From Kaistella carnis (GTDB taxonomy: Bacteria; Bacteroidota; Bacteroidia; Flavobacteriales; Weeksellaceae), in contig NZ_CP034159.1 of assembly GCF_003860585.1 (NCBI RefSeq), positions 1,426,001 to 1,490,000 of the forward strand: a stretch of DNA of 64,000 bases. Reading direction: 5' to 3'. Both the position numbers and the translations under genes were made by a program. The notes under the pieces were generated by a model. It saw only the letters and a list, made by a program, of their open reading frames with translations, did no database searches and was not told where the DNA came from. This document shows positions 1,501-38,652 of the stretch, piece after piece. Numbering within the stretch: the stretch's first letter is position 1; each line of letters opens with the position of its first letter.

Positions 1501-1588
1501 GTCGTATAATAACTAAGCTTTAGCTTCGCTCTGTTCACTTCGTTCGGGTCGTTTTGTCTGCAGGACACAAGATGAAAGCCCGTTGAAC
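1501..1588 (+). other. attC-like site, short-hairpin type with internal insertion
   Basis: R'' side GTCGTATAATAAC, then AAGCTTTAGC. A 25-base insertion relative to the other hairpin sites lies before a GTTTTGTC/GACACAAGA stem, and the R' core GTTGAAC is at 1582-1588. It has the same frame as the sites at 3259, 11764, 14252, 30387 and 34032. Confidence 0.5.
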
Positions 1589-1650
1589 GGAAGCTCCGGT
1601 AGTTTTTCAGCAGTATGATGGTTCTCTTATGGGGATATCGTTTTTAGAAT
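1582..1650 (-). mobile_element. Degenerate solo left end of the IS91-like element
   Basis: GTTGAACGGAAGCTCCGG followed by sequence resembling bases 3312-3380 of the intact IS91-like copy (CTTATGG, ATCG, TTTTAGAAT), but no transposase follows. About 70 bases remain. The duplicate lies at 36915-36983. Confidence 0.5.
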
Positions 1651-1768
1651 GTAAATACGTATATAAGTAGTTTTCATCGAAAATTTTAGCGATCAATTGA
1701 ATTTTTTAGCAAGTAGAAAGTTTTCGTATTTTTATACCACTTGCAGAAATACCAAAACGTATCTGCAA
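1650..1768 (+). other. attC-like site (long type A, degraded left arm)
   Basis: The right arm has the type A pattern (AGTAGAAAGTTTTCGTATT, then TTGCAGAAATACC) and ends at the core CGTATCTGC (1758-1766), which lacks one T of the usual GTTATCTGC. The left arm is weaker (GTATATAAGTAG). The first bases of the following cassette, ATCTGCA, complement its end TGCAGAT at 2302-2308. Confidence 0.55.
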
Positions 1769-1782
1769 TATTTCACCAAACT

Positions 1783-2310
1783 ATGTGTAAAGAATTATTT
1801 GACAAATTACGCGCTGATACGGCTGAGCTTTATAAGAGTTATCGTTTAAATCATTTTAGCTTATTTTATATTCACAAATATTATGTAGAAAAAAGTAACG
1901 AGCATACTTTAGAAAATTTTGTAATTGAAGATAAAATCAATGAATCAGTTCGTTTCGATGGTGAGAATATGATTAAGGAAACTTTTGATAATGGTAAGTA
2001 TCAATTTTTAGTTTCTTCATCAGCGATTGTTAATTTTTATCAAATATGGGAAGATAAGTATCGAAAAAAGATCTCGAAAGAAGTAAATATAGATGTTATC
2101 AACAGTGAAGTTTATTACGAACTTAACAAACTAAGACAATCAATTATACATAACAGTCATAGACCAACCCCGGAATTTAAAAAAGTTGCAAGTAATTTTA
2201 AATTCATATTAATAGATGATAAATTAGAACTTACTGTAGAGGAAATTCATAAAATCTATAAAATATTACTGCAGGAAATTGATGATTTAGAAAAAAAGTA
2301 CTGCAGATAA
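1783..2310 (+). CDS. HEPN-like cassette protein (copy 1)
   Basis: 175 residues from the ATG at 1783; an upstream TTG at 1741 lies inside the attC-like site and is unlikely. The protein is helical and charged. Near residue 128 it carries NKLRQSIIHNSHRP, with an R-x4-H motif as in HEPN ribonuclease domains of toxin-antitoxin, abortive-infection and RNA-processing proteins. No other domain is recognised. The stop codon overlaps the attC R'' core (GATAAC). The partner gene usual for HEPN-MNT modules is absent. The duplicate at 37116 differs by Ile to Val next to the histidine. The HEPN call is by motif only. Confidence 0.5.
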   Translation: MCKELFDKLRADTAELYKSYRLNHFSLFYIHKYYVEKSNEHTLENFVIEDKINESVRFDGENMIKETFDNGKYQFLVSSSAIVNFYQIWEDKYRKKISKEVNIDVINSEVYYELNKLRQSIIHNSHRPTPEFKKVASNFKFILIDDKLELTVEEIHKIYKILLQEIDDLEKKYCR

Positions 2311-2430
2311 CATATTTATACAAGCGGGTATGTAGTTTTCGTCGACGATTTTAGCGGTTAATTTAGTTTTTAGCAAGTAGAACGTTTTCGTATATTTATC
2401 CCTCTTACAGAAATACCAAACCGTTACCAG
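2303..2430 (+). other. attC-like site, long type A
   Basis: R'' GCAGATAAC (2303-2311), left arm ATATTTATACAAGCGGGTA, right arm ending TTACAGAAATACCAAACC, R' GTTACCAG (2423-2430). The arms are imperfectly complementary over about 19 bases next to the cores, and pairing continues inward (GTTTTCG with GAACGTTTTCG-type sequence). Confidence 0.7.
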
Positions 2431-2441
2431 TAATTTTAGAA

Positions 2442-3254
2442 ATGAAGAAATTAACCAGGAGGAAATTTATAAAAACAGGAATATTAGCCACAATTGGATT
2501 AGTACTTTTGGACTCACTTTGGTTTGAAAAATATTTAATTGACTGGAATTATTTTGACATCTCAAAATCGGAAAAGAATAAGATAAGAATCATACAAATT
2601 TCGGATTTACATTTAGATCAATTAAGATACTTTCACAAATCTATTGCGAAAAAAATAAATTCAATGAAACCCGATTTAATATTCATCACCGGAGATTCTG
2701 TTGATAAAACAGAAAAAATAGAACATTTGAACTTATTCCTTGAATTAATTGATAATTCGATTAAAAAGTACGCTATAACGGGAAATTGGGAATATTGGGG
2801 AAATGTTAATCTTGAAGAACTTAAAAGTGTCTATTCGAAAAATAATTGCGAATTGTTAATAAACGAGAATAGAAATGTTTCAATAAGAGATCGTGATATA
2901 ACAATAATTGGAATTGACGATTTAATTGGCGGCAATCCTGATTTCGGAAAAGCGACTGAAAATCTAAAAGATACTGAAACAAATATCGTTTTATCACACT
3001 GTCCCGAACAAAGAGATATAATTGCAAAACAAAAAGGAAATTTAAATATTGATCTAGTTCTTTCTGGTCATACTCACGGAGGACAAATTACATTTTTAGG
3101 AATTGTTCCTTTCAAACCTCAAGGAAGTGGAAGATATTTAAAAGGTTGGTATAAAGACTCGGAACCAAAAATGTATATTTCAAAAGGAATTGGAACGAGT
3201 ATTTTACCAATTAGATTTGGGGCAAGAGCAGAAGTGGTAGAAATGGAAATATAA
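2442..3254 (+). CDS. Tat-exported metallophosphoesterase, YkuE/YaeI-like (copy 1)
   Basis: 270 residues. The N-terminus LTRRKFIKTG and the hydrophobic stretch after it form a twin-arginine signal. The calcineurin-like metallophosphoesterase motifs follow in order: SDLHLD (D-x-H), ITGDSVD (GDxxD), GNWEYW (the GNHE motif with Trp replacing His), SHCPE and GHTHGGQ. The fold binds two metals. Loss of the usual GNHE histidine may lower or alter activity, although the asparagine remains. YkuE/YaeI relatives act on phospholipid-type substrates at the membrane; the substrate here is unknown. It is the only gene of its cassette, and the duplicate at 37775 is identical. Confidence 0.85.
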   Translation: MKKLTRRKFIKTGILATIGLVLLDSLWFEKYLIDWNYFDISKSEKNKIRIIQISDLHLDQLRYFHKSIAKKINSMKPDLIFITGDSVDKTEKIEHLNLFLELIDNSIKKYAITGNWEYWGNVNLEELKSVYSKNNCELLINENRNVSIRDRDITIIGIDDLIGGNPDFGKATENLKDTETNIVLSHCPEQRDIIAKQKGNLNIDLVLSGHTHGGQITFLGIVPFKPQGSGRYLKGWYKDSEPKMYISKGIGTSILPIRFGARAEVVEMEI

Positions 3255-3258
3255 AAAC

Positions 3259-3318
3259 TACTGGTAATAACTAAGCTTTCGTTTTGTCTGAAAGACAAGA
3301 AATGAAAGTCCGTTGAAC
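3259..3318 (+). other. attC-like site, short-hairpin type
   Basis: R'' TACTGGTAATAAC (3259-3271), then a hairpin with CTTTCGTTTTGTC (3276-3288) pairing GACAAGAAATGAAAG (3294-3308), then R' GTTGAAC (3312-3318). TACTGGTAA complements the cassette start TTACCAGTA at 2424. The R' doubles as the left end of the IS91-like element. Confidence 0.6.
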
Positions 3319-3390
3319 GGAACCTCCGGTGGCTTTTCCTCCCCAGTTGGTCACCTTATGGAGTTATCGATTTTAGAATTTAGGATAATA

Positions 3391-3421
3391 GAGCAGTTTT
3401 TTAGAAGGACTGCTTTTTTTG
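3391..3421 (+). terminator. Rho-independent terminator in the IS91-like left end
   Basis: AGCAGT (3392-3397) pairs with ACTGCT (3409-3414), followed by a T-run on the + strand. It points with the cassettes and would stop transcription leaving the upstream cassette before it enters the element antisense. Equivalent hairpins occur in the other copies and remnants. Confidence 0.6.
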
Positions 3422-3499
3422 GGAACTGAGGTGAGATTTTTTGAAGCACTCACCGGCTTTTCTTTACTTTTAAGATATAAAATCCCTTACCCACAAAGT

Positions 3500-4606
3500 T
3501 TATTTTGCAGACGAGGCATTGAAAACGGCAAGAAAATCCTGAGGTGGGCCACGTTGTCCGAAAAGTGCGATGGTGATTAAATTTCCTTCCTTGCAACACC
3601 GACATTTTTTAAGCAAAGTTTTCGGTTTTACTTCTGTAATCTGGATTTTTAAATCTGATTGTAAATCCTGAAGTTTTCCACGTTTCCAGGAGCTGCTTAA
3701 AATCCCGTAATGCCTTATTCTCACAAATCTTCGAGGCAAAATATGAAGACTAAATCTGCGCACAAATTCAGTATTCGATAAAGTCATTTCCTTTTTCTGA
3801 CCTTCTTTACGATAATCTTTGTACCCAAAACGAACTTCTTTATCGGTAACTTCTTGGATCCGATGATTACTGATCGCAACTTTGTGGGTGTATCGTCCTA
3901 AATATTCGATCACCTGTTTCGGTCCACCAAATGGTCTTTTGCCATAAACGACCCAGTTTTTGGTGAAGAGTTGATCGATTAAATCCTGGTCTTTAATTCC
4001 GGAAGCTCTTAATAAAGCCACAAACTTTGCCCGAAAAACTTTGCTCATCGCTTTTACACAGAAAAGGTATTTGTCAGATTTTATCTTCGCCCGCCATTTT
4101 CCTTGTTTATTAATGGCGCCACCCGGAACAATGCAGTGCAAGTGAGGATGAAGACTTAAATTCTGTCCCCAAGTATGTAAAATCGCAATCATTCCCAGTT
4201 GGATTCCCTTATTTTTACCAAACTGATTTAATGTTGCCCAAGCCGCTTCAAATAAGGTTTTGTACAATAATGCCGGTTGAGAGATCGCCAAACCATTCAA
4301 CTCTTTAGGAAGCGTAAAAACCACGTGGTAATAACTACACGGCAATAATTCCGCTTCTCGTTTCTGAATCCATTCTTCTCTTTCATGGCCTTGACACCCG
4401 GGAAAATGCCGATTCCGAAATGAGTTGTAACTGATGGAAAGATTACCACAACCATCGCACGCATCAATATGACCTCCCAATGCAGAAGTTCTACAATACG
4501 ATAAAGCGCGAAGCGTTTTTTCCTGATGAACCGTAAAATTCTGAGCCGATAAATTGATTTTACGAATGACTTCTGCTACACTTCCGCCTTTACTTCGGAT
4601 TTCCAT
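3500..4606 (-). CDS. IS91-family HUH (Y1/Y2) transposase, copy 1, damaged zinc finger
   Basis: About 368 residues from the ATG at 4604-4606, which overlaps the end of the recombinase gene, so translation is probably coupled. Order: N-terminal zinc ribbon (CDGCG near residue 44), the HUH motif (HPHLHCIVPGG), and the region with the candidate catalytic Tyr (VIEYLGRYTHK). It would nick and initiate rolling-circle transposition. Compared with copies 2 and 4, two zinc-finger cysteines are Phe (SFRNRHFPGC instead of SCRNRHCPQC), so this copy may be inactive although the frame is open. The C-terminus has a CRCC motif. Confidence 0.85.
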   Translation of the reverse strand: MEIRSKGGSVAEVIRKINLSAQNFTVHQEKTLRALSYCRTSALGGHIDACDGCGNLSISYNSFRNRHFPGCQGHEREEWIQKREAELLPCSYYHVVFTLPKELNGLAISQPALLYKTLFEAAWATLNQFGKNKGIQLGMIAILHTWGQNLSLHPHLHCIVPGGAINKQGKWRAKIKSDKYLFCVKAMSKVFRAKFVALLRASGIKDQDLIDQLFTKNWVVYGKRPFGGPKQVIEYLGRYTHKVAISNHRIQEVTDKEVRFGYKDYRKEGQKKEMTLSNTEFVRRFSLHILPRRFVRIRHYGILSSSWKRGKLQDLQSDLKIQITEVKPKTLLKKCRCCKEGNLITIALFGQRGPPQDFLAVFNASSAK

Positions 4607-5531
4607 TTTTGCTGTACAAAGTAAAAATGGTATCCAAAGGGCTGTGCGGTTTTTGATCCGACAATTGACAGACATGAAGATATTCCATGGTCGACTCAAT
4701 TCTTTCATGACCCAAAAGTTTCTGAACCATAATGATTGAAACACCATCTTCCAATAAATGCGTGGCAAAGCTGTGTCGCAAAGTGTGCGTATGAACAATT
4801 TTGGTAATTCCTGCTTTTTTGCTCACGGTTTTGATGACCCACTGCACGCCGCGCTGACTGTATCTGGAATCAAAATCCGCTTTGCCGGAATCTGGCTGGT
4901 CAATCTCTTCAATATTTCTATTTTGATTTCCATTGAATAAATATTGCGTCGGATTTTCCACGGAAATAAAGGTTTTAAGTCCCCGAATTAAATGTTCGGA
5001 TAAAGGAACATAACGGTCTTTTTGACCTTTACCCTGAACAACATGCAGCATTTGTCGGTCAAAATCCAGATGATGAAGTTCGATATTCCGCACTTCCATA
5101 CATCGAAGCCCACACCCGTAAATCAGACCGATGAGCAGTTTGTGTTTCAGTAACTGCGCCGTTTGCAGCATACGCCAAACTTCCTGACGGCTTAAAATAG
5201 TCGGCAGTTTTTTGACTTTTGGAATGGCTGGAAGATGCAGAAAGCTGTAGGGCAACCCTTCCATTTTCAATAAAAAGCGAAGTCCAAAAACCGTGTGTTT
5301 AAAATAGGTTTGGGAAGGTGTTTTGCTGCGTTGTTGAAGTTCGAAGAGATAATCTTTGATGTCTTCCGGATCCAATTCCGTAGGGATTTTACCGAAATGA
5401 AGCGCAATTGCAGCAACATGCCGGGAATAATTATCAAAGGTTCTGGGACTTTTTCCCTGTATTGAAATATTTCTTTCGAAACGTTGTATCAGTTCAGAAA
5501 AACCTTTAACTTCGCTTGAAGCGCGATTCAA
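4590..5531 (-). CDS. IS91-associated tyrosine recombinase, copy 1
   Basis: 313 residues: N-terminal SAM-like DNA-binding domain (residues about 10-95) and C-terminal catalytic domain with the first Arg in YGCGLRCMEV, Lys in GKGQKDR, HTLRHSF (H-x-x-R), LLGH and the Tyr nucleophile in MEYLHV. The tail HSPLD recalls the SPLD ending of integron integrases. The region between the Lys motif and HTLRHSF is too short for the IntI-specific insertion, so I class it as the recombinase carried by many Bacteroidota IS91-like elements. The ORF begins at TTG; an upstream ATG in frame only with a different A-tract length is discussed in the findings. Confidence 0.85.
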   Translation of the reverse strand: MNRASSEVKGFSELIQRFERNISIQGKSPRTFDNYSRHVAAIALHFGKIPTELDPEDIKDYLFELQQRSKTPSQTYFKHTVFGLRFLLKMEGLPYSFLHLPAIPKVKKLPTILSRQEVWRMLQTAQLLKHKLLIGLIYGCGLRCMEVRNIELHHLDFDRQMLHVVQGKGQKDRYVPLSEHLIRGLKTFISVENPTQYLFNGNQNRNIEEIDQPDSGKADFDSRYSQRGVQWVIKTVSKKAGITKIVHTHTLRHSFATHLLEDGVSIIMVQKLLGHERIESTMEYLHVCQLSDQKPHSPLDTIFTLYSKNGNPK

Positions 5532-5651
5532 AATTTTGTTCGTTCTTAAATCCTCCGGAGATTTTTTTTGTAGCCATTTTAGAGATTTTATTTTATGTTA
5601 TGATCAAACAAAGTTAATAAAACAGCCTCAGGAAAAGCTACCGGAGGTTTA

Positions 5652-5778
5652 GTTCAACACGGGTTTGGCAAAAGTGGCGGTTTAGTGCTCCGCAGACACA
5701 TTTGTGGTTAATCAAAGTTTGGTTCTCCGCATCAACATTTGTGGTGAAAATCGCCACCTTCGCCAAGCCCGAAAACGT
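5652..5778 (+). other. attC-like site, type C, interrupted by IS1182-like element
   Basis: R'' GTTCAAC, left arm GGGTTTGGCAAAAGTGGCGG, right arm CGCCACCTTCGCCAAGCCC, then AAAACGT at 5772-5778. After the insertion the R' continues as ACGTTAGCGG at 7492. Removing the IS1182-like element and one ACGT repeat restores AAAACGTTAGCGG. Confidence 0.65.
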
Positions 5779-7491
5779 CAGTCTGTGAAAAAACCTCCGT
5801 TTATTACTTCAAAAATAGCTAAATTATTTCAATAATACGGGAGGAAATTCGTATATTTAATAATGCAACACATCACAGGAATAGCCCGCAATCAAATGGT
5901 TTTTACAAGTTTAGAAGATTCGATTTCTGAAGATAATTCGGTTCGGTTTGTAGATGCCTTTGTTGAGAATATCGATTTAAAAGCATTAGGTTTTGAACTG
6001 CAAATGCTAAAAACGGAAGGACGACCGAGTTTCAGTACGCAAACATTTCTCAAAATCTATTTGTATGGTTATCTGAATGGACTTCGGAGTTCACGGAAAC
6101 TCGAAAAAGAATGTGTGCGCAATATTGAATTACAATGGCTTTTATTTGGACTTGTACCCAATTACCACAGCATTTCTGATTTTAGAAAAAACAATCCGTC
6201 GGGTTTAAAAAAGCTGTTCAAAGTATTCGTTTCTTTTTTGAAAGATGCAGATCTAATTGCTGGAGAAACCATCGCCATTGACGGTACTAAAAGTAGAGCG
6301 CACAACAGCAAAAAAGCCAATTTTAATCAAAAGAAAATTGATAAACACTTGGCTTATATTGAAGAGAAAACACAGCAATACCTGGATGAATTGGCTCAGA
6401 ATGACGAGAAAGAAAATAGCATGACAATCACTAAGATTCAGGAAAAGATTGAAAGATTAAAGAAAAATAAACTCGGCTACGAAGTCTTAGAAGAAAAACT
6501 AAAAGCAAGTGGCGAACCTCAGATAAGTACTACCGATGAAGATTCACGAGCACTGTTGGTTCAGGGGCAAGTTGTAGAAGTAAGTTATAATATTCAAGCC
6601 GCTGTTGATGCTCAATATAATTTGGTTGTGGCTACACACACCATTAATCGTAATGATCGTAATGCTTTGAGCGCAATTGCAATTGAAGCTAAGGAGAATT
6701 TGGGAATTGAAACATTCACTGCTTTAGTTGACAAAGGTTATCACAATGGTCGGGAAATCACCCAATGCAAAGAGCAAAACATTATCACCATTGTTGCGCA
6801 TCCAGATCAGGGAAAAAGCAACGAAAATGGCACTCAACCAGATTATTTTGTTTCAAAATTCATTTACAATACAGACGATGACACTTACACTTGTCCGGCA
6901 AACCAAGTTTTAAAAACGACGGGACGATGGCACAAGAAAACCCGCGATAGAGACAGCTACGACTTCAAAAAATACCGAACTCCAGCTTGTAAAGAATGTC
7001 CTGTAAAATCACTTTGTACGAGCAGAACAGGAGGCCGAGAGATTGATAGAAGTCAATATGCCGATGCTGTTGCAGAAAACAATCAGCGCTACCAAGCTAA
7101 TGCGCAATTATACCGAAAGCGGCAGGAGATCAACGAGCATATTTTCGGAACAATCAAAAGGCAGTGGGGCTACAATCACACGAATTTAACGGGACTTGAA
7201 AAAGTAAATGGTGAACACAGTTTAATCATGCTGGTGTATAACATCAAACGTGCGATAAATATTCTTGGAGTTCCGGAATTAATTGCCAAATTGAAGAACT
7301 GGAAGTCACCTTACAAAGCGAAAGGTTGTTTTGTTTTTAGACAGACTTGTTTTGCGTTTATTTTAGCCCCATTGGAAAATACATTATCAATTGCAGCATA
7401 AAAAATAGCCGATCTTAAAACGCATTTATTGAGGTGTGGAAGGTTGGTTTTCTTAAGGAATTACTGGAAAGCTGAGTTTATTCACAGCCTG
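5779..7491 (+). mobile_element. IS1182-like insertion sequence, copy 1
   Basis: 1713 bases with imperfect terminal inverted repeats (CAGTCTGTGAAAAAAC at the left; complement of the right end CAGGCTGTGAATAAAC). Flanked by 4-base direct repeats ACGT at 5775-5778 and 7492-7495, which come from the attC R' core. One complete transposase gene. Confidence 0.85.
5863..7401 (+). CDS. IS1182-family DDE transposase
   Basis: 512 residues. The N-terminal transposase domain holds FLKIYLYGYLNGLRSSRKLE. The catalytic core carries IAIDGTKSRAHNS (first Asp) and ALVDKGYHNG (second Asp), followed by a cysteine region (CKECPVKSLC) and EHIFGTIKRQWGY with the distal Glu. The frame is complete. The second copy (17658-20568) is nearly identical in its shared part but is split by an IS256-like insertion. 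Confidence 0.9.
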   Translation: MQHITGIARNQMVFTSLEDSISEDNSVRFVDAFVENIDLKALGFELQMLKTEGRPSFSTQTFLKIYLYGYLNGLRSSRKLEKECVRNIELQWLLFGLVPNYHSISDFRKNNPSGLKKLFKVFVSFLKDADLIAGETIAIDGTKSRAHNSKKANFNQKKIDKHLAYIEEKTQQYLDELAQNDEKENSMTITKIQEKIERLKKNKLGYEVLEEKLKASGEPQISTTDEDSRALLVQGQVVEVSYNIQAAVDAQYNLVVATHTINRNDRNALSAIAIEAKENLGIETFTALVDKGYHNGREITQCKEQNIITIVAHPDQGKSNENGTQPDYFVSKFIYNTDDDTYTCPANQVLKTTGRWHKKTRDRDSYDFKKYRTPACKECPVKSLCTSRTGGREIDRSQYADAVAENNQRYQANAQLYRKRQEINEHIFGTIKRQWGYNHTNLTGLEKVNGEHSLIMLVYNIKRAINILGVPELIAKLKNWKSPYKAKGCFVFRQTCFAFILAPLENTLSIAA

Positions 7492-7539
7492 ACGTTAGCG
7501 GTAATTTTACAACGACACGAAAATAAATGACAACTACAT

Positions 7540-8412
7540 ATGAAAATACTTTTACTAATTTTTATTTTAACTTTAAGTTATTCTTTAAAAGCGCAAAATG
7601 ACCCTGAATTATTTCCTGTAAATGACCGAAAAGTTGGTTTCCTGGGGTATTATCTTGCAGATGGAACTAACGTAGTTAAAGGTCAGTTCTGTACTGCAGG
7701 TTATAATATTGATGGGTATTATATGGTTTCAAAGGCAGAACACGAATATTACGAAGATGGTAGAAGAAAAGAGAATCATATTCCAAATACAGAAAAATTT
7801 GGCTTGTTAAACTCCAAAGGAGAATTTATTATTAATTTTAGTGACAATTACAACTTCGTTGGAGTGGAAAAGGGATTGATATACGTAATCCGAAATAATT
7901 TTTACGGCGTCGTTAATGATAAAAATGAAATATTAGTACCAATAGAATACGAAGAATTGGATATTAAAAAACAAGGGGTTATAATTGCTAAAAAAAACAC
8001 TAAATATGGTATCATTACAAAAGAAAACAAAATTTTAGTTCCATTTATTTATGACAATATTTTTAGTTTTGCTGAAAATGAATTGGCAAACACGTTCTAC
8101 GTTATTGTTTCAAAAGACAATAAAAATGGTATTATAGATAAAAATCATAAATTTATTTTTCGACTTCCAAAAACTGATTTAGTGTTTGTAACCGTAAAGT
8201 CTATTGGAATTAAGAAAGGAAACAAATATAATTTAGTTGACCATAATCTAAAAGCAATATTGCCTAATGATTTTGAAAAAATGTATTTAATAGATGTTGA
8301 AGGAACAGGAATTTATGCAACAAGTAACGGTTATGGATATTACTTTGACATTGATGGGAAATTATTAAAAAAAGAGAAATTAATTGAAGAAGGAATGAAA
8401 ACAGGGTATTAA
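7540..8412 (+). CDS. Secreted WG-repeat-like protein (cassette gene)
   Basis: 290 residues with a signal peptide (MKILLLIFILTLSYSLKAQ). The mature part has repeats of the WG/KWG type: KFGLLNSKGEFIINF, FYGVVNDKNEILVPIEYEE, KYGIITKENKILVPFIYD and NGIIDKNHKFIF, each a short beta hairpin followed by a Tyr/Phe-rich strand. Such proteins are probably binding or surface scaffolds; no catalytic motif is seen. It is the only gene of its cassette, which starts GTTAGCGGTA after the IS1182-like element and ends TACCGCTAATAAC. Confidence 0.7.
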   Translation: MKILLLIFILTLSYSLKAQNDPELFPVNDRKVGFLGYYLADGTNVVKGQFCTAGYNIDGYYMVSKAEHEYYEDGRRKENHIPNTEKFGLLNSKGEFIINFSDNYNFVGVEKGLIYVIRNNFYGVVNDKNEILVPIEYEELDIKKQGVIIAKKNTKYGIITKENKILVPFIYDNIFSFAENELANTFYVIVSKDNKNGIIDKNHKFIFRLPKTDLVFVTVKSIGIKKGNKYNLVDHNLKAILPNDFEKMYLIDVEGTGIYATSNGYGYYFDIDGKLLKKEKLIEEGMKTGY

Positions 8413-8417: not shown

Positions 8418-8477
8418 TACCGCTAATAACTAAGCTTTCGTTTTGTCTGAAAGACAAGAAATGAAAGCCTGTTAGAT
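8418..8477 (+). other. attC-like site, short-hairpin type
   Basis: R'' TACCGCTAATAAC (8418-8430), complementary to the cassette start TTAGCGGTA. Hairpin CTTTCGTTTTGTC/GACAAGAAATGAAAG. The R' position reads GTTAGAT (8471) instead of GTTGAAC, because the adjoining IS91-like end is altered. Confidence 0.55.
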
Positions 8478-8681
8478 CCTTTCGCTACGCTCTGGACAGG
8501 CTCACCTCCGGTGGCTTTTCCTCCCCACTTGGTAACCTTATGGAGTTATCGTTTCTAGAATTTAGGATAATAGAGCAGTTTTTTAGAAGGACTGCTTTTT
8601 TTGGGAACTGAGGTGAGGTTTTTTCAGGCACTCACGGGCTTTTTTTTACTTTTAAGATATAAAATCCCTTACCCACAAAGT

Positions 8682-9789
8682 TTATTTTGCAGACGAGGCA
8701 TTGAAAACGGCAAGAAAATCCTGAGGCGGTCCTCGTTGTCCGAAAAGTGCGATGGTGATTAAATTTCCTTCCTTGCAACACCGGCATTTTCTGAGCAGAG
8801 TTTGAGGTGCAAAAACAGTTCTTTTCACTTCTAAACTTTCTTGTAAATCCTGAAGTTTCCCGCGTTTGCAGGAGCTGCTTAAAATTCCGTAATGCCTTAT
8901 TCTTACAAACCTTCGAGGCAAAATATGAAGACTAAATCTGCGCACAAATTCAGTATTCGATAAGGTCATTTCCTTTTTTTTTACCGCCTTTTCTGTAATC
9001 TTTGTACCCAAAACGAACTTCATGATCCGTAACTTCTTTGATGCGGTGGTTGCTGATGGCGACTTTGTGGGTGTATCTCCCCAAGTATTCGATCACCTGT
9101 TTCGGGCCGCCAAAAGGTCTTTTGGCATAGACGACCCAGTTTTTGGTAAAGAGTTGATCTATTAAATCCTGGTCTTTAATTCCGGAAGCTCTTAATAAAG
9201 CCACGAACTTTGCGCGGAAAACTTTGCTCATCGCTTTTACACAGAAGAGATATTTATCAGATTTTATCTTCGCCCGCCATTTGCCTTGTTTATTAATTCC
9301 GCCACCTGGAACAATGCAGTGCAAATGTGGATGAAGACTCAGGTTTTGTCCCCAAGTGTGCAAAATCGCAAGCATTCCCAGTTGGATTCCCTTATTTTTA
9401 CCAAACTGATTTAAAGTTGCCCAAGCCGCTTCAAATAAAGTTTTGTACAATAATGCCGGTTGAGAGATCGCCAAACCATTGAGTTCTTCGGGAAGCGTAA
9501 AAACCACGTGGTAATAACTGCACGGCAATAATTCCTGTTCGCGTTTCTGAATCCATTCTTCTTTTTTATGACCTTGACATTGCGGACAATGCCGATTACG
9601 ACACGAGTTGTAACTGATGGAAAGATTTTCGCAACCATCACACGCATCAATATGACCACCCAAAGCAGCAGTCCGGCAATACGATAAAGCCCGAAGCGTT
9701 TTCTCCTGATGAACCGTAAAATTCTGAGCCGATAAATTGATTTTGCGAAGAACGTCGGCAACACTTCCGCCTTTACTTCGGGTTTGCAT
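8682..9789 (-). pseudogene. IS91-family transposase, copy 2, frameshifted at an A9 tract
   Basis: The frame from the ATG near 9789 retains an intact zinc ribbon (SCRNRHCPQCQG) and the HUH motif HPHLHC. It shifts at a run of nine A residues on the coding strand (about 8976-8984), where copies 1 and 4 read KEGQKKEMTLSN. Downstream the second frame (8682-9023) gives the normal C-terminus. It may be a genuine one-base indel, or could be decoded by slippage; I treat it as a pseudogene. Confidence 0.75.
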
Positions 9790-29278: not shown

Positions 29279-29305
29279 TAAGTGTCCAAAAAATCACGTA
29301 TCAAA

Positions 29306-31320: not shown

Positions 31321-31443
31321 AAGCTATTTCTACAAGCGGGTATCAAGTTCTCATCGAAGATTTTAGCGGTTAATTAAGTTTTTAGCAAGTAGAAAGTTTT
31401 CGTATTTTTAGCCCGCCTGCAGAAATACCAAACCGTTATCTGC
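31314..31443 (+). other. attC-like site, long type A
   Basis: R'' GTTCAAC, left arm CTATTTCTACAAGCGGGTAT, right arm TAGCCCGCCTGCAGAAATACC, R' GTTATCTGC (31435-31443). Confidence 0.7.
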
Positions 31444-31743: not shown

Positions 31744-33101
31744 ATGGAAATTAAGAAGCAGATTTCACTCGAAGTGGTACATCCCAATGCGTGTGGAATA
31801 GACATTGGCAGCCGCAGCCACTGGGCAGCTGTAGGGCAAAATGCGCAGGATGTAAAAGAATTTGGGGTGTACAGCCAAGATCAGCTCGAGATGTGTAACT
31901 GGCTACACTCAAAAGGTGTTACCTCCATTGCAATGGAATCCACCGGAACTTACTGGCAAAACCTATTTTCCACTTTGGTGGGCCAGGGTTTTGAGGTGAT
32001 TTTGGTGAATGGCAGACAAACCAAAAACATCAAAGGAAAAAAGACCGACATTAAAGATTGTCAGTGGATACAGAAACTGCATTCTCTCGGGCTTTTGAGT
32101 GCCAGTTTTTTGCCAGATTCGGACACGGATACTGTACGGACCTATTCCAGACACCGGCAGAATCTGCTGAAGCAATCCGCATCATGCGTCAGGAGAATTC
32201 AAAAATACCTTCGGTTGATGAATATGCGGTTAGAAGTCGTGGTAAGGGATGTAGTTGGTCTTACCGGATCATCGATTATTGAGGCTTTTTTAAATGGTGA
32301 GCATCAAGGTGAGGACTTGGCAAAACTCCGTCATTATAATTGCCGGAAATCAGAGGAAGAAATTGCAAAAGCCCTCCAATTTAAGGGTCGTAAAGATTAT
32401 CTTTTCGCTTTACAACAGGAATGGAACTCCTATAAACACCTTCAACAGCAAATCACAGAGACAGATTTACAAATTGATCAACTGCTGAAAGAACTCATCG
32501 ATAAAGACGACCATAAGAAACAGCATACCATTGAAAAAAAAAGCACAAGCGAAAAAACAAAAATGCGGTAAGCCAAACGGATATGAATTTAATTGCTTAC
32601 CAATACTTCGAAGGTGTAGATCTGATGGCTATTGAAGGGGTAAGTCAGGGATTGATTATGACCCTTATTGCTGAAATCGGATTAGACTTTATTAGGAAAT
32701 TCCCCACTGCTAAACAGTTCACGGCATGGCTTAGGCTTGCGCCAAACAACAAGATAAGCGGCGGGAAAGTCTTGTCTCATCACATTCCAAAAGGAAGTTC
32801 AAGACTAAAAATTGCTTTTCGAACCACGGCCAATGCCATAGGGAATCTGAAAGAAGGCTGGCTTGTTGACTTCTTCAAGAGGATCAATTATAAAAAAGGA
32901 CGAGCCACTGCTGTGACTGCCTTGGCCAGAAAACTGGCAGTCATTATTTGGAATACGCTGGTGAAAGGTCAGAACTACAATCCACCAACACAATACCTTT
33001 TCCTTGACGAAAAAAGAAAGATGGGAATGGTAAAGAGGATTCAAAAACAAATTACTAAATTTGGTTTGACTAATGAAGATCTAAGTTTTATAACCAACTG
33101 A
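31744..33101 (+). pseudogene. IS110-family transposase split at an A9 tract
   Basis: The first frame (31744-32571, 275 residues) has the DEDD RuvC-like domain: CGIDIGSRSHWAAV (first Asp), AMESTGTYW (Glu) and GKKTDIKDCQWIQ (Asp pair). The second (to 33101) has the Transposase_20 domain (AIEGVSQGLIMTLIAEIG, FTAWLRLAPNNKISGGK) with the conserved Ser region. The frames differ by -1 at nine A residues (32534-32542). Ten A residues would fuse them into about 450 residues. It could be a pseudogene or a slippage-decoded gene. The element ends are not resolved. Confidence 0.75.
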
Positions 33102-33154: not shown

Positions 33155-34009
33155 ATGAAATTACCTGACGACATAGAAACAAATATCTTACTACGGAACA
33201 ACTCTCCGATGGATGACTTTTTGGGACTATCACCGACTGAAATTCATCATTTACTTTACGACACATTTGGCGACAAATCTCCAATTCAATTTCATGAAGG
33301 TATTGACGGCAAAACCCTCGACCAAATTCCTATTTTTAGAATTGTAGAAGATTATTTGAAAATAATTCAACGTGACAAACAAATTAAGCTGACACCTCTC
33401 GGAGCATTACCGAAGAAAGTAATGGTAGAACTTTACGACAAGAGATATTTGCTCGAAGAACATATAGAAAACGGCATAACTAAACTTTGGAGAGAAGAAG
33501 ACAGTATTTCCATCAGGAGTGCAAGACTGACAGTCGAACTTGCAGGACTTGTAAAAAAAATATCAGGTAAACTAACTTTGACAAAAACAGCAACCAAACT
33601 TCTTGAGACTAACAATCGCTTACAAATATTCAAACAGTTTTTTAAAGCGTTTACAGACAAGTTTCTTTGGAGTTTTAATGACGGTTATCCGGAACAACCA
33701 ATCGGACAACTGGGTTGGGCATTTTCAATAATTATGCTTGACAAATATGGCGACCAACCACAAACGGTTGACTTTTATGCTGACAAATATTTAAAAGCAT
33801 TTCCAAAATTCATTACGTTTTTCCAACCTGACTACTCTACTCCTGAAAGACAATTTTTTAGATGTTACGGTGTTCGGACTTTTGACAGATTTTTACTTTG
33901 GTTCGGTTTCGTAACAGTTGATAAACAGAAAATATTTTTAGATTTAGACACTGATAAATTTAAACGAACAGATTTGGTGCAAAATATTATCAAAATTGAC
34001 GACCAATGA
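33155..34009 (+). CDS. Hypothetical protein (cassette gene)
   Basis: 284 residues, no signal peptide or membrane segment. The N-terminus reads NNSPMDDFLGLSPTEIHHLLYD, a pattern I have seen in uncharacterised proteins but cannot name with confidence. The middle (KLTPLGALPKKVMVELYDKR, SARLTVELAGLV) looks like winged-helix-type helices. It lies after the IS110-like element in a cassette starting GTTATCTGC at 31435. Its end (TGCTGCTAATAAC) does not complement that start, so the original start of this cassette was probably lost. Confidence 0.6.
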   Translation: MKLPDDIETNILLRNNSPMDDFLGLSPTEIHHLLYDTFGDKSPIQFHEGIDGKTLDQIPIFRIVEDYLKIIQRDKQIKLTPLGALPKKVMVELYDKRYLLEEHIENGITKLWREEDSISIRSARLTVELAGLVKKISGKLTLTKTATKLLETNNRLQIFKQFFKAFTDKFLWSFNDGYPEQPIGQLGWAFSIIMLDKYGDQPQTVDFYADKYLKAFPKFITFFQPDYSTPERQFFRCYGVRTFDRFLLWFGFVTVDKQKIFLDLDTDKFKRTDLVQNIIKIDDQ

Positions 34010-34031
34010 TAATGGACAGAGAAAGAATTAC

Positions 34032-34119: not shown

Positions 34120-34220
34120 GGAAGCTCCGGTAGCTTTTCTTGAGCTTCAGTGGATTATCCACGGAAAATTTTAAAGATATTGAAGAGACTTCTAGAAGAA
34201 TCTCTTTTTTTGGTCGTTTC
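34113..34220 (+). mobile_element. Diverged solo left end of IS91-like element with terminator
   Basis: GTTGAACGGAAGCTCCGGT, then a terminator-like hairpin: AGAGA (34184-34188) and TCTCT (34201-34205) followed by T-run (to 34211). It parallels the end of copy 1 but differs strongly in sequence. The following 34221-34446 has no gene or structure that I can support, except a stray ATAACGTTAAAC at 34242. Confidence 0.4.
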
Positions 34221-34446
34221 CATTTTTTAGTAACTTTCTACAATAACGTTAAACTCTCCTAGGAATCGGATGAAATATTTTATGATGAACAAATTCTGAT
34301 GGGGGAGAACATTACAAAATTGGCTGACTTTCGATGATTAACATTAACGTTATTTAACATCTTTTGTATTTTTAGTTTGATTAGGAAAACCTATTTTTGT
34401 TAGAAAGAGTTGAAGAACACTCTTAATAACATTAAAATTTTAAATT

Positions 34447-34740
34447 ATGGAAAAGTTTGCAATATTAGCTAGAGTAGAAGCAAAACCGGGTAAAGAAAAT
34501 GACGTATTGGAATTCCTAAAGTCAGCCTTACCACTTGCGGAAGGTGAGCCAGGAACCGTAAGATGGTATGCTTTACAAATCGGTCCTTCTACTTTTGGAA
34601 TATTCGATACTTTCGGAACTACAGATGCAAGAGATGCTCACTTGAATGGTGAGATTGCAAAGGCTTTAATGGCCAATGCTTCTGAATTACTTGCTAAAGA
34701 ACCTGTACTTGAAATGGTAGATCTACTAGCAGTAAAGTAA
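34447..34740 (+). CDS. ABM-domain (antibiotic biosynthesis monooxygenase-like) protein
   Basis: 97 residues, one ferredoxin-like ABM domain (KFAILARVEAKPGKENDVLEFL, FGIFDTFGTTDARDAHLNG). Related proteins are small dimeric monooxygenases or haem/quinol-binding enzymes; the substrate is unknown. It lies outside the cassette array as judged by its own terminator, and convergent to the DJ-1 gene. Confidence 0.8.
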   Translation: MEKFAILARVEAKPGKENDVLEFLKSALPLAEGEPGTVRWYALQIGPSTFGIFDTFGTTDARDAHLNGEIAKALMANASELLAKEPVLEMVDLLAVK

Positions 34741-34770
34741 GCAATCGAACACAAATTTTTAATACAGTTA

Positions 34771-34807
34771 AATGGAGCAAGGCATTTCCCCGGCTCCATT
34801 TTTTTAT
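34771..34807 (+). terminator. Terminator of the ABM gene
   Basis: AATGGAGC (34771-34778) pairs GCTCCATT (34793-34800), followed by T-run. Confidence 0.8.
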
Positions 34808-34887
34808 ATCATTTTGTGAAAGGTTGAACCTTTGCTGTGTATACAAGATTTATCTTGATTATTCAAAGAAAATTTTAATTTCGCATA

Positions 34888-34918
34888 AAAAAAAGAGACT
34901 GAAAACAGTCTCTTTTCT
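34888..34918 (-). terminator. Bidirectional terminator at the end of the DJ-1 gene
   Basis: AAAAGAGACTG (34891-34901) pairs CAGTCTCTTTT (34906-34916), with an A-run on the left that gives a T-run on the minus strand. It serves the convergent DJ-1 gene. Confidence 0.75.
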
Positions 34919-34929
34919 ATTCTTAACTA

Positions 34930-35709
34930 TTAGAGTTTTTTAAGTTCTTCTAAAACAGCTTCGCCAACTGCATGAGCAGATTGAGGATTTTGTCCTGTTA
35001 CCACTCTTTCGTCTACGGTAACGTGTGTTTGCCATAAACCAGATTTTTCAAACTTGGCTCCACGTTCTATTAATTTAGATTCTAATCTAAATGGAACCAC
35101 TTCATCTAATTTAACCGCAGCTTCTTCTTCGTTGGTGAAAGCATTGATTTTTTTGCCATCTACCAAGTATTTTCCATTGCTGAGTTTAATATTCACCAAT
35201 CCAGCAGGACCGTGACAAACCGCACTTACGATTCCATTTTTTTCGTAGATTTTTTGTGCGATTACTGCCAATTCTTCATTATCTGCAAAATCCCACATCG
35301 TACCGTGACCTCCAGCATAAAGAATCCCCACATATTCATCAGGATTTACTTCTGAAGGCGTCATGGTGTTCTGAATTTTATTTTGATAATATTCATCTGC
35401 CAAAAATCTTTCATTAACCTTATCATCTGGAGTATTTCCATAATACGGCGGATTTCCACCTTTTGGACTCACGAAATCTATTTCGTAACCAGCATCTACT
35501 AATACCGCCCAAGGATGCGTAACTTCACCTAAATAATAACCGGTAGATTCACCAGTGTTTCCTAATTCGCCGTGGCTCGTAACCACGAATAATACTTTTT
35601 TGCTCATTCTGTTAGATTTTATTGTTTGTGCATTTATCATATTAATCCCTAAAAAAAGAATACAACCCGTTAAGAAAATAATCTTGGATAAAAACTTGTT
35701 GTGATTCAT
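34930..35709 (-). CDS. DJ-1/PfpI-family (Hsp31-like) exported protein
   Basis: 259 residues from the ATG at 35707-35709 (a longer frame to 35769 is unlikely). Signal peptide, then a type 1 glutamine-amidotransferase-like fold: VLFVVTSHGE, VGILYAGGHGTMWDF and the nucleophile elbow VSAVCHGPAG with Cys and His. Hsp31-like members act as glyoxalases or chaperones under stress; export is less common. It is on the same strand as and downstream of the Crp/Fnr gene. Confidence 0.85.
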   Translation of the reverse strand: MNHNKFLSKIIFLTGCILFLGINMINAQTIKSNRMSKKVLFVVTSHGELGNTGESTGYYLGEVTHPWAVLVDAGYEIDFVSPKGGNPPYYGNTPDDKVNERFLADEYYQNKIQNTMTPSEVNPDEYVGILYAGGHGTMWDFADNEELAVIAQKIYEKNGIVSAVCHGPAGLVNIKLSNGKYLVDGKKINAFTNEEEAAVKLDEVVPFRLESKLIERGAKFEKSGLWQTHVTVDERVVTGQNPQSAHAVGEAVLEELKKL

Positions 35710-35808
35710 TTTACTATTGATTTTTAATGATTTGATAGTGCAAAGGTAAATGCACCTCTCCACAAACAACAGGACCTACCTCACAACTTTTTTGTGACCT
35801 ACATCACA

Positions 35809-36372
35809 TTACACCGAAAGCCGACTCAAGGTTTCTCTGGAAACACCTAAATATGAAGCGATTAATGTTTTGGGCAATCGTTGTAAAAGTGTGGGATATT
35901 GAGAAATAAATTGTTCGTAGCGTTCTTTGGCATTGCTATTCAGCAGAGACAAAATTCTTCTTTGGAGTGCTATATAACCATTATTAGACTTTTTCCTGAA
36001 AAAATGTTCTATTTTATGCATATCTGCACAGAGTTTCTCTCGGTTATAGAGAGACAAAGTAAGTACTTCGGTAGATTCTAATGCATCAATGGTAAAAGTA
36101 GCTTCCGTTTGATTAAAATACGCCTGATAATCGGTAATCCACCAATCTTCCATTGCAAATTGCATGATGTGCTCTTTCCCTTCTTTATTCAGGTAAGATG
36201 CTTTTAACAAACCATTCATCACAAAATAATCATTTTGTACGGTATCTCCTTCTTGAATTAAAATCTGATGCTTTTTAAATTTTTTCAAGGTAAAATGAGA
36301 CAGGATGTACTCGAACTCCTGGTCAGTTAATGGCGTAATTTTCTCAATTTGACGTCTTAAAATCTCACTCAT
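35809..36372 (-). CDS. Crp/Fnr-family transcriptional regulator (copy 2)
   Basis: 187 residues, identical to the protein at 476-1039 (cyclic-nucleotide-binding-like domain plus C-terminal helix-turn-helix). The same candidate -7 box lies upstream at 36415-36422 and the same small hairpin at 36436-36465. Here the complete downstream DJ-1 gene is visible. Confidence 0.85.
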   Translation of the reverse strand: MSEILRRQIEKITPLTDQEFEYILSHFTLKKFKKHQILIQEGDTVQNDYFVMNGLLKASYLNKEGKEHIMQFAMEDWWITDYQAYFNQTEATFTIDALESTEVLTLSLYNREKLCADMHKIEHFFRKKSNNGYIALQRRILSLLNSNAKERYEQFISQYPTLLQRLPKTLIASYLGVSRETLSRLSV

Positions 36373-36642
36373 ATTTTTATCATTCTAAATTGCAAACAAA
36401 AGAATTGTTGCCTCCAAATGTAAACTATTGAAACCAAAAAATCCATCACTCTTGATGGGCTTTTTAAATATGGTAGATGGAATTCTTATGGATTGTTGGA
36501 GAAAACAAAAGCTATAGAATGATATCTTGGTCGGACCTATTTTTGTGTTTGTGGATTGTAAAAATCAATTGATAAAAGAAATCCGAAAAAGCAGTTTATC
36601 ATTTTACTGAAACAACAAATAAATATCGCAAAAAAGTTTTCA

Positions 36643-36771
36643 GGATCTGACGGAACTAATGCCTCATACAACTCTATTTTTACTGTTAATTCTTTAGCCA
36701 AAACTATCACAGCGATGATTGCATTGAAATTGGTAATCTTAGGAAAATGGAATTTTAACGAACCTATATAA
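36643..36771 (+). pseudogene. Fragment of a serine hydrolase (copy 2)
   Basis: Duplicate of 1310-1438 with two base changes (Glu to Asp, Val to Ala: TAMIALKLV). Both copies stop at the same place. Nothing else is recognisable between 36466 and 36833. Confidence 0.4.
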
Positions 36772-36833
36772 GTATACCATCCATTAAAATTGTCTCGCAG
36801 TTGAAATAAAAATTTTATCTCAAAAAAAAACAC

Positions 36834-36921
36834 GTCGTATAATAACTAAGCTTTAGCTTCGCTCTGTTCACTTCGTTCGGGTCGTTTTGTCTGCAGGACA
36901 CAAGATGAAAGCCCGTTGAAC
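36834..36921 (+). other. attC-like site, short-hairpin type (duplicate)
   Basis: Same as 1501-1588; R' GTTGAAC at 36915-36921, followed by the same solo IS91-like left end (36915-36983). Confidence 0.5.
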
Positions 36922-36982
36922 GGAAGCTCCGGTAGTTTTTCAGCAGTATGATGGTTCTCTTATGGGGATATCGTTTTTAGAA

Positions 36983-37101
36983 TGTAAATACGTATATAAG
37001 TAGTTTTCATCGAAAATTTTAGCGATCAATTGAATTTTTTAGCAAGTAGAAAGTTTTCGTATTTTTAAACCACTTGCAGAAATACCAAAACGTATCTGCA
37101 A
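36983..37101 (+). other. attC-like site, type A (duplicate)
   Basis: Same as 1650-1768 with one base change in the right arm (TTTTTAAACC); ends in the same shortened core CGTATCTGC. Confidence 0.55.
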
Positions 37102-37115
37102 TATTTCACCAAACT

Positions 37116-37643
37116 ATGTGTAAAGAATTATTTGACAAATTACGCGCTGATACGGCTGAGCTTTATAAGAGTTATCGTTTAAATCATTTTAGCTTATTTT
37201 ATATTCACAAATATTATGTAGAAAAAAGTAACGAGCATACTTTAGAAAATTTTGTAATTGAAGATAAAATCAATGAATCAGTTCGTTTCGATGGTGAGAA
37301 TATGATTAAGGAAACTTTTGATAATGGTAAGTATCAATTTTTAGTTTCTTCATCAGCGATTGTTAATTTTTATCAAATATGGGAAGATAAGTATCGAAAA
37401 AAGATCTCGAAAGAAGTAAATATTGATGTTATCAACAGTGAAGTTTATTACGAACTTAACAAACTAAGACAATCAATTGTACATAACAGTCATAGACCAA
37501 CCCCGGAATTTAAAAAAGTTGCAAGTAATTTTAAATTCATATTAATAGATGATAAATTAGAACTTACTGTAGAGGAAATTCATAAAATCTATAAAATATT
37601 ACTGCAGGAAATTGATGATTTAGAAAAAAAGTACTGCAGATAA
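37116..37643 (+). CDS. HEPN-like cassette protein (copy 2)
   Basis: 175 residues, identical to the protein at 1783-2310 except Ile to Val beside the motif histidine (LRQSIVHN). The R-x4-H motif is retained. The stop again overlaps the R'' core. The ATG at 37116 is chosen for the same reason as in copy 1. Confidence 0.5.
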   Translation: MCKELFDKLRADTAELYKSYRLNHFSLFYIHKYYVEKSNEHTLENFVIEDKINESVRFDGENMIKETFDNGKYQFLVSSSAIVNFYQIWEDKYRKKISKEVNIDVINSEVYYELNKLRQSIVHNSHRPTPEFKKVASNFKFILIDDKLELTVEEIHKIYKILLQEIDDLEKKYCR

Positions 37644-37763
37644 CATATTTATACAAGCGGGTATCTAGTTTTCGTCGACGATTTTAGCGGTTAATTTAGT
37701 TTTTAGCAAGTAGAACGTTTTCGTATATTTATCCCTCCTACAGAAATACCAAACCGTTACCAG
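37636..37763 (+). other. attC-like site, long type A (duplicate)
   Basis: Same as 2303-2430 with two base changes (GGGTATCTAG in the left arm, CCTCCTACAG in the right). Confidence 0.7.
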
Positions 37764-37774
37764 TAATTTTAGAA

Positions 37775-38587
37775 ATGAAGAAATTAACCAGGAGGAAATT
37801 TATAAAAACAGGAATATTAGCCACAATTGGATTAGTACTTTTGGACTCACTTTGGTTTGAAAAATATTTAATTGACTGGAATTATTTTGACATCTCAAAA
37901 TCGGAAAAGAATAAGATAAGAATCATACAAATTTCGGATTTACATTTAGATCAATTAAGATACTTTCACAAATCTATTGCGAAAAAAATAAATTCAATGA
38001 AACCCGATTTAATATTCATCACCGGAGATTCTGTTGATAAAACAGAAAAAATAGAACATTTGAACTTATTCCTTGAATTAATTGATAATTCGATTAAAAA
38101 GTACGCTATAACGGGAAATTGGGAATATTGGGGAAATGTTAATCTTGAAGAACTTAAAAGTGTCTATTCGAAAAATAATTGCGAATTGTTAATAAACGAG
38201 AATAGAAATGTTTCAATAAGAGATCGTGATATAACAATAATTGGAATTGACGATTTAATTGGCGGCAATCCTGATTTCGGAAAAGCGACTGAAAATCTAA
38301 AAGATACTGAAACAAATATCGTTTTATCACACTGTCCCGAACAAAGAGATATAATTGCAAAACAAAAAGGAAATTTAAATATTGATCTAGTTCTTTCTGG
38401 TCATACTCACGGAGGACAAATTACATTTTTAGGAATTGTTCCTTTCAAACCTCAAGGAAGTGGAAGATATTTAAAAGGTTGGTATAAAGACTCGGAACCA
38501 AAAATGTATATTTCAAAAGGAATTGGAACGAGTATTTTACCAATTAGATTTGGGGCAAGAGCAGAAGTGGTAGAAATGGAAATATAA
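37775..38587 (+). CDS. Tat-exported metallophosphoesterase, YkuE/YaeI-like (copy 2)
   Basis: 270 residues, identical to the protein at 2442-3254: Tat signal RRKF, then SDLHLD, GDSVD, GNWEYW, SHCPE and GHTHGG. It is the last cassette gene before the core chromosome. Confidence 0.85.
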   Translation: MKKLTRRKFIKTGILATIGLVLLDSLWFEKYLIDWNYFDISKSEKNKIRIIQISDLHLDQLRYFHKSIAKKINSMKPDLIFITGDSVDKTEKIEHLNLFLELIDNSIKKYAITGNWEYWGNVNLEELKSVYSKNNCELLINENRNVSIRDRDITIIGIDDLIGGNPDFGKATENLKDTETNIVLSHCPEQRDIIAKQKGNLNIDLVLSGHTHGGQITFLGIVPFKPQGSGRYLKGWYKDSEPKMYISKGIGTSILPIRFGARAEVVEMEI

Positions 38588-38591
38588 AAAC

Positions 38592-38652
38592 TACTGGTAA
38601 TAACTAAGCTTTCGTCTTGTCCGCAGGACACGAGATGAAAGCCTGTTGAAAC
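38592..38652 (+). other. attC-like site, short-hairpin type, at the array/chromosome border
   Basis: R'' TACTGGTAATAAC as in copy 1, but the hairpin is the CTTTCGTCTTGTC/GACACGAGATGAAAG version seen at 14252. R' reads GTTGAAAC with one extra A. Confidence 0.55.

Follow-up and report, generated by a model that had tools for sequence, protein, structure and literature searches.

An array of integron-like gene cassettes lies in the stretch of Kaistella carnis DNA analysed here, a window of 64,000 nucleotides (C1:1426001-1490000, C1 being contig NZ_CP034159.1 of a single-contig genome of 3,230,102 bases). As read over window positions 1-40000, its plus-strand gene units start with GTTRNNN, finish with NNNYAAC and are then followed by a long imperfect hairpin. 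A preliminary description of the window had reported cassettes all on the plus strand with AAC-hairpin-GTT separators, and on reading these were found about where it had placed them; we likewise arrive at 13 different cassettes, of which two occur in duplicate. It had also proposed a covariance-model check for attC sites on the bottom strand. Our model, built from 43 bottom-strand attC sites of related genomes and from none of this genome, returned 12 window sites at E<=1e-3, without exception on the minus (bottom) strand, with E from 7e-4 to 1e-23; these E-values are rough, and the training sites, like the threshold of the stem scan used below, were picked by us within the same family. The sites, which have the attC layout of R'', L'', L' and R' and stand between cassettes, are as follows (window coordinates):

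2305-2429, minus strand: attC (66.5 bits, E 1.5e-13)
5652-5783, minus strand: attC, R' split by an IS1182-like insertion sequence (IS) at AAC/GT (84.5 bits, E 5.5e-18; junction)
10836-10962, minus strand: attC (88.9 bits)
13208-13335, minus strand: attC (107.6 bits, E 1.2e-23)
16644-16773, minus strand: attC (88.3 bits)
17442-17572, minus strand: attC, R' split by an IS1182-like element (27.1 bits, E 7e-4; 98% like the site at 22421; junction)
21644-21768, minus strand: attC (93.9 bits)
22417-22547, minus strand: attC (39.3 bits, E 7e-7)
27826-27960, minus strand: attC (95.5 bits)
29146-29277, minus strand: attC, first 14 nucleotides resembling an IS91-like left terminus (77.8 bits; sequence)
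31314-31441, minus strand: attC (103.2 bits)
37638-37762, minus strand: attC, copy of 2305-2429 (67.1 bits)

Genome-wide, 30 matches were obtained at the same threshold, 28 of them in C1:1319011-1463762 and two near 452 kb of the 3.23 Mb. The latter pair (C1:451834-452884) forms a small second cluster of attC sites lacking an integrase (CALIN), far from the main region. The opposite-strand reading of the same places scores far lower, for example 31.7 versus 114.9 bits, and since the model was trained on bottom strands, this implies that the attC sites of this genome share the asymmetry of those of its relatives. The cassettes are co-oriented and have complementary own ends: R' and R'' of a window cassette match at 5.00 of six variable positions, compared with 2.54 between cassettes, a difference reached in 0 of 20,000 permutations. 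This test used 11 hand-delimited cassettes and omitted the TonB cassette (R'' not found), the first cassette (degenerate R') and the duplicates. With at least two attC sites and no integrase within 40 kb (the nearest, Int1, is about 44 kb from the array), the window array is a CALIN, as the preliminary description had it for the window. It spans about 62 kb on the plus strand (C1:1402169-1464768), most of it inside the window, and extends leftwards past the window to about C1:1402169. The window had no Rfam match at the gathering threshold, although whether Rfam contains an attC family was not checked.

The preliminary description had further stated that no integron integrase accompanies the array, and had suggested searching the genome for intI and attI. 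The statement holds for the window, and for canonical IntI it holds genome-wide: the profile TIGR02249 gave 34 places, none over the cut-off, and because all 14 control genomes likewise give sub-threshold matches to it, weak matches mean little. It does not hold for the wider system. The best TIGR02249 places are two tyrosine recombinases inside the same 145-kb region as the arrays, here called Int1 and Int2, which head other cassette arrays, as their homologs do in relatives. With 178.9 bits (Int1) and 205.2 bits (Int2), both stay under the cut-off of 265 for the IntI family.

C1:1357313-1358398, plus strand: Int1, tyrosine recombinase of 361 amino acids, about 68 kb left of the window
C1:1326541-1327650, minus strand: Int2, tyrosine recombinase of 369 amino acids, about 98 kb left of the window

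Int1 is divergently oriented at the head of a minus-strand cassette array (about 1335-1357 kb), and an attI-like site, TTGCGTATATTTGAGA running directly into GTT, adjoins it. The Int2 array lies on the 3' side of its integrase (about 1319-1326 kb, minus strand). The genome thus holds two integrase-headed arrays on the minus strand and the CALIN (about 1402-1464.8 kb) in the other orientation. An integrase with attI at the head, the latter recognised by sequence likeness, is found for these two arrays and in relatives, but not for the window array. A cassette gene of the Int1 array (534 amino acids, L023:895-2499, C1:1346895-1348499) matches the fused AriAB of the anti-phage system PARIS with 442 bits, and is thus a defence gene carried as a cassette.

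By sequence, the solved structures closest to Int1 are those of IntI4 (2a3v) and of a XerC-like protein. In an alignment of five Int1, three Int2, two Xer and six IntI sequences, a block present in the IntI rows is absent from Int1, Int2 and Xer. The distance from the K box to HxLRHS is 65 residues in Int1 (38 of 40 measurable) as opposed to 107 in IntI (19 of 19); it is 66 in Int2 (six measurable of 11), 69 to 73 in Xer (n = 2) and again 65 in 108 of the 120 best database homologs, counting those measurable, of 7243 matched. Judged by these alignments, Int1 and Int2 are without the additional domain of about 42 residues, containing the I2 helix, that is considered indispensable in IntI. According to excerpts of the literature, which is how all papers are cited here, this domain carries the I2 helix that docks extrahelical bases, is necessary for cassette capture and occurs in no other protein (PMC7790495), and it is likewise held necessary for capture and unique to integron integrases (PMC9668308). 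In a 38-row tree, Int1, Int2 and IntI formed separate clades, while the order of IntI, Int1/Int2 and the tyrosine recombinase of the IS91-like elements described below was unsure owing to long branches.

The association of these integrases with attC extends to related genomes. Int1 matches at E<=1e-60, taking the Int1 and Int2 families together, occur in 58 of 149 genomes (this one included), and the covariance model found attC in 98 of the 149, among them 58 of 58 with such an integrase. Two sets of 20 Int1 loci, including at most 12 kb of array side each, were fetched and scanned for stems at a threshold of 32, fixed after viewing test segments; as the genomes are related to each other, the counts are not independent. 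attC was present on the array side of 32 of 40 loci (17/20 in the first set, 15/20 in the second, seven of these 15 having a single site), and four of the eight misses (L062, L064, L102 and L109) have less than 300 bp before the contig end. On the non-array side, sites were seen in one of 20 loci (one orientation scanned) and three of 20. After shuffling of the first set, 51 of 54 array sides had no site and three had one; the second set was left unshuffled. Int2 loci carried attC on the 3' side, in the direction of the integrase, in 10 of 12 cases, the two misses having less than 700 bp there, and at least one scan match on either strand lay on the 5' side in six of 12. The attI-like TTGCGTATATTTGAGA with its GTT, or a close variant, stands ahead of the leading cassette in all 13 Int1 loci that were aligned (of 41). 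The relatives' cassettes (122 from 24 loci) repeat the end complementarity of the window, with an own-end match of 4.98 of six versus 2.76 across cassettes, 79 perfect matches and 0 of 2000 permutations reaching the value; the complementarity extends to R' positions 10 and 12, with position 11 nearly always unmatched.

Int2 also occurs at 95-98% identity on two Chryseobacterium plasmids. NZ_CP041688.1 has cassettes with attC behind Int2; the cassettes of this plasmid integron (L217, NZ_CP041688.1:5000-18500) are interspersed with a group II intron gene as well as an IS110 transposase. In the NZ_CP094530.1 stretch with Int2, the covariance model found no attC, and a restriction-modification-like cluster lies downstream of the Int2 gene between two IS91-like elements with tyrosine recombinase (L218, NZ_CP094530.1:26000-41000).

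Sites of Int1-headed arrays (160) were compared with attC behind canonical IntI in other classes of the phylum (64 sites from 13 of 20 loci, a set for which the shuffle control is absent). Within the first 20 columns of the stem, 64 of 64 canonical sites carried unpaired extra bases, versus gaps in 29 of 160 flavobacterial sites, most of which therefore lack the extrahelical stem bases that mark canonical attC. Instead, 131 of 160 flavobacterial sites, against one of 64 canonical ones, have a signature of two differences, A in the left arm and G in the right-arm complement, exactly 3 bp apart. These pairs are G.T wobbles on the bottom strand and A.C mismatches on the top strand, and G22 and G25 of the signature are among the few non-core positions conserved at 90% or more in the alignment of the 43 bottom strands. 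The bottom strand gave the more stable fold for 141 of the 160 flavobacterial sites and for 37 of the 64 canonical ones. The covariance model, trained on Int1 arrays, recovered attC in 10 of the 11 Int2 loci searched but in 0 of 20 loci with canonical IntI.

We consider it probable that the window array is the CALIN part of an integron system whose recombinases lie outside the IntI family. On the wider proposition, that folded single-strand recombination of cassettes had a second origin or a second re-tooling, with I2-less Int1 and Int2 and a G.T-wobble polarity mark on attC sites lacking extrahelical bases, we are evenly divided. In the proposed mechanism, cassettes would be circles; a tyrosine recombinase of the Int1 or Int2 type would recognise the folded bottom-strand attC hairpin of such a circle and insert the circle at attI beside the Int1 or Int2 gene via exchange of the folded bottom strand. 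Polarity would come from the wobbles, which turn into A.C if the top strand folds, or from an R-L internal loop, and the wobbles would replace the extrahelical bases and the I2 helix. IS91-like elements inserting into attC reshape the CALIN. It is suggested that Int1 and Int2 recombine these attC sites via the bottom strand, with the wobbles marking that strand; the data bearing on strand use are the folding energies and the strand preference of the model. Int1 and Int2 may also use the double strand or need a partner, and the CALIN may have been parted from its integrase by rearrangement or off-site insertion.

Several observations weigh against this interpretation. Recombination by Int1 and Int2 is inferred, not observed. 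Four loci of Int1 type (L070, L099, L101 and L106), each offering about 12 kb on the array side, were without attC by both scan and covariance model. The exact TGCGTATAT of attI is present in 20 of 41 Int1 upstream regions. attC also occurs in 40 of 91 genomes without an integrase at E<=1e-60, and another recombinase might therefore serve them. Beyond the order, scan matches accompany 13 of 18 Int1-like loci (drawn from 395 genomes of the class), about nine of them convincing by eye; only 10 of 33 beyond-order sites show the 3-bp G.T signature, and the Int1-like genes L212-L214 have no convincing attC beside them. The stem scan penalises bulges, so that bulged flavobacterial attC sites may be under-counted, although bulged canonical ones were returned, and it found canonical attC in only 13 of the 20 canonical loci. 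Closer to the window, the signature is present in seven of 12 window sites, the other five being two IS-cut sites whose boundary the script misread, two sites with 5-bp spacing and one with a single pair; in the left arrays of this genome 10 of 13 sites have it, as do 27 of 41 Int2-array sites, 12 of the 41 having a gap. As a side observation, the four attC-less Int1 loci resemble In0 elements, and L099 retains the attI motif.

An ordinary CALIN, with cassettes made by canonical IntI integrons elsewhere and stored here next to unrelated Int1 and Int2, would be in keeping with the commonness of CALINs (excerpt of PMC9024848) and with the finding that, of 395 genomes sampled across the phylum, 105 have an IntI over the cut-off. 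We regard this as unlikely. Among the 108 genomes listed with an IntI match at E<=1e-50, one belongs to the same class and none to the same order or family, figures limited by the share of the class among the 395 sampled genomes, which is not shown. Moreover, the local attC type spans 98 of the 149 relatives while the attC model finds nothing in the 20 canonical loci, and 32 of 40 loci have Int1 heading the array, with an attI-like end common to the 13 aligned of 41.

A second explanation starts from mobile elements that the preliminary description had overlooked. The window contains five IS91-like copies, of a type with a tyrosine recombinase (TyrR) and a Y2 (HUH) transposase, one copy having both genes open:

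3268-5657, minus strand: IS91-like copy 1, both genes open (TyrR 4590-5531, Y2 3500-4606), inserted at YAA^C (PF00589, PF04986, PF14319; NF033538, 406.8 bits; junctions)
8427-10841, minus strand: IS91-like copy 2, TyrR open, Y2 split over two frames (90% identity to copy 1; open reading frames; junctions)
11774-13213, minus strand: IS91-like copy 3, internally deleted (similarity, junctions)
14260-16649, minus strand: IS91-like copy 4, one stop in the TyrR frame (similarity, junctions)
30396-31319, minus strand: IS91-like copy 5, internally deleted (similarity, junctions)

The Y2 transposase and zinc-binding domain of the IS91 family are recognised by PF04986, PF14319 and NF033538. The family targets the tetranucleotide GAAC/CAAG. 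Insertion here departs from this target and is at YAA^C, at 20 of 20 left ends in this genome and in 20 of 20 left-end loci of relatives (one locus was taken from each of 29 other genomes). All 20 left-end motifs of this genome follow YAA directly with TAACTAAGC; one is located within another copy's right end, and in some cases no whole element follows. Of the right ends here (TTTAGTTCAA followed by C, n = 15), 13 pass into an attC arm as judged by eye, one into the left end of another copy and one into other sequence. In relatives, 25 of 29 right ends continue into a typical attC arm by eye and four into other sequence (L164, L167 and L179, which are alike, and L180), while the first-listed left ends all follow YAA and a second motif in L167 follows TAT. 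Left ends after YAA together with right ends into attC arms place the insertion point within the R'' box, after AA and before C. The element may circularise; its ends, once joined, would give TTAGTT-CAA-TAACTAA, a palindrome that would suit a tyrosine recombinase. The attC site at 29146-29277 has an element-like terminus of 14 nucleotides before an otherwise normal arm, with a similar site in L153; it is perhaps the scar of an excised IS91-like element. Sites of the AACTAAGCTTTCG type, including the two at 1511 and 38602 close to the array ends given in the preliminary description, proved to be IS91-like left ends or remnants and not attC. A reading of this "type A" (AACTAAGCTTTCG up to GTTGAAC) as a short attC was rejected, as the flanks of 20 copies identify it as the IS91-like left end; type A sites may act as mini-attC.

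These elements could themselves have spread the cassettes through their TyrR and HUH transposase, leaving the array as a by-product. The mapping of element ends at attC R'' boxes, the GTTGAAC...GTTCAAC ends that make the element itself cassette-shaped, and the clustering of all 15 TyrR matches of at least 71% identity in this genome within 137 kb would fit. We find this somewhat less plausible still than an ordinary CALIN: the element occurs at E<=1e-80 in only 34 of 197 family genomes, attC matches are commoner, and it is absent from the initial 12 kb of the L058 and L059 arrays. That the repeats are terminators or extragenic palindromes between transferred genes is very improbable, since, apart from being hairpins between genes, they come with cassette-specific end complementarity, conserved strand polarity and array-head recombinases, all unexpected of terminators.

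In addition to the IS91-like copies, the array is interrupted by transposase genes of three other kinds: two IS1182-like, two Mutator/IS256-like and one IS110-like. All four IS1182-like copies found (eight ends) occupy the R' crossover at AAC/GT, with CAC/GT at one end:

5777-7493, plus strand: IS1182-like element in an attC crossover (PF13751, PF05598; ends)
17566-20654, minus strand: IS1182-like element, also at an attC crossover and itself containing a Mutator/IS256-like gene at 17825-19027 (ends)
C1:1351472-1353188 and C1:1406606-1408322: further IS1182-like copies in attC crossovers

Positions 17823-18122 are 84% like 26519-26818, whose gene matches PF00872. An IS110-like transposase in two frames (31744-33101; family by eye) lies behind the attC at 31314.

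The cassette genes of the window are of varied families (plus strand throughout):

1741-2310, plus strand: 189 amino acids, no family (open reading frame, profile search)
2442-3254, plus strand: metallophosphoesterase (Pfam PF00149)
7540-8412, plus strand: WG-repeat protein (PF14903)
10974-11756, plus strand: leucine-rich repeat protein (profile search)
13330-14244, plus strand: CAAX protease-like, Rce1 (PF02517)
16878-17459, plus strand: DUF7010 (PF22765)
20686-21633, plus strand: alpha/beta hydrolase (PF00561)
21864-22412, plus strand: 182 amino acids, no family
22609-23189, plus strand: two-gene cassette, 22866-23189 MazF/PemK-like (PF02452), 22609-22875 no match
23655-25973, plus strand: TonB-dependent receptor-like (PF14905), 3' attC not found
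27989-28772, plus strand: two-gene cassette, DUF1905 and DUF2461, the second gene matching only the first half of its family
29282-30379, plus strand: serine hydrolase, beta-lactamase fold family (PF00144)
33155-34009, plus strand: 284 amino acids, no family
37074-38587, plus strand: duplicates of the cassette genes at 1741-2310 and 2442-3254

By its layout, the cassette at 22609-23189 is a toxin-antitoxin pair. Window 35334-38767 is duplicated as window 1-3434, with 87 differences in 3434 positions and no gap. A block inside the array (34140-36823), with an ABM-domain gene and, by eye, DJ-1-like and Crp-like genes, recurs truncated at the left edge (window 1-1500), so that the array extends across a duplication of about 35 kb.

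Surveys, as far as excerpts of PMC9229058 and PMC2426708 go, pick integrases by the additional domain, and if I2-less enzymes run integrons, such surveys overlook a whole class. In the excerpt of the IntegronFinder 2.0 paper, one complete Bacteroidetes integron is given beside those of Chlorobi and Ignavibacteriae, that of Salinibacter ruber M1 (PMC9024848); compared with this single case, 58 of the 149 genomes here have such an integrase together with attC, and Int2 is on two Chryseobacterium plasmids. Strand choice in attC without extrahelical bases becomes testable. Reviews name Bacteroidota among integron-bearing phyla (PMC8618304, PMC9668308; excerpts). For C. indologenes, an integron In31 with catB3 is named (PMC9366087, excerpt), and IntegronFinder 2.0.5 found no integrons in 12 Thai isolates according to the excerpted part of PMC12382657. 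Among the matches listed from the open-licence literature, preprints excluded, there was no description of these integrases or of attC-targeting IS91-like elements in Flavobacteriia.

Among known systems, the closest are the sedentary chromosomal integrons with IntI of Vibrio, Xanthomonas and Salinibacter, which share with the present system attI, a divergent integrase, co-oriented cassettes, attC hairpins and R''/R' cores with complementary own ends. Unlike in these, the integrase here is without additional domain and I2 helix, attC is mostly without extrahelical bases and has two G.T wobbles, and a second integrase family stands upstream of co-directional arrays. The window array resembles other CALINs in having attC and no integrase within 40 kb, but differs in that the same genome has integrase-headed arrays with the same attC type. 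The IS91-like element shares the Y2 transposase and zinc finger with IS91 family and ISCR elements, and differs in its extra tyrosine recombinase gene; ISShvi3 beside attC likewise gives a new cassette structure at an attC site (PMC9229058, excerpt). Unlike in IS91, ISCR and ISShvi3, the mapped left ends here all follow the YAA of an R'' box or of the end of another copy. IS1111-attC elements and group IIC-attC introns, in the excerpts that describe them, similarly use attC as a target for mobile elements. Compared with these two, the IS91-like element with TyrR is found here at R'' and the IS1182-like element at R'.

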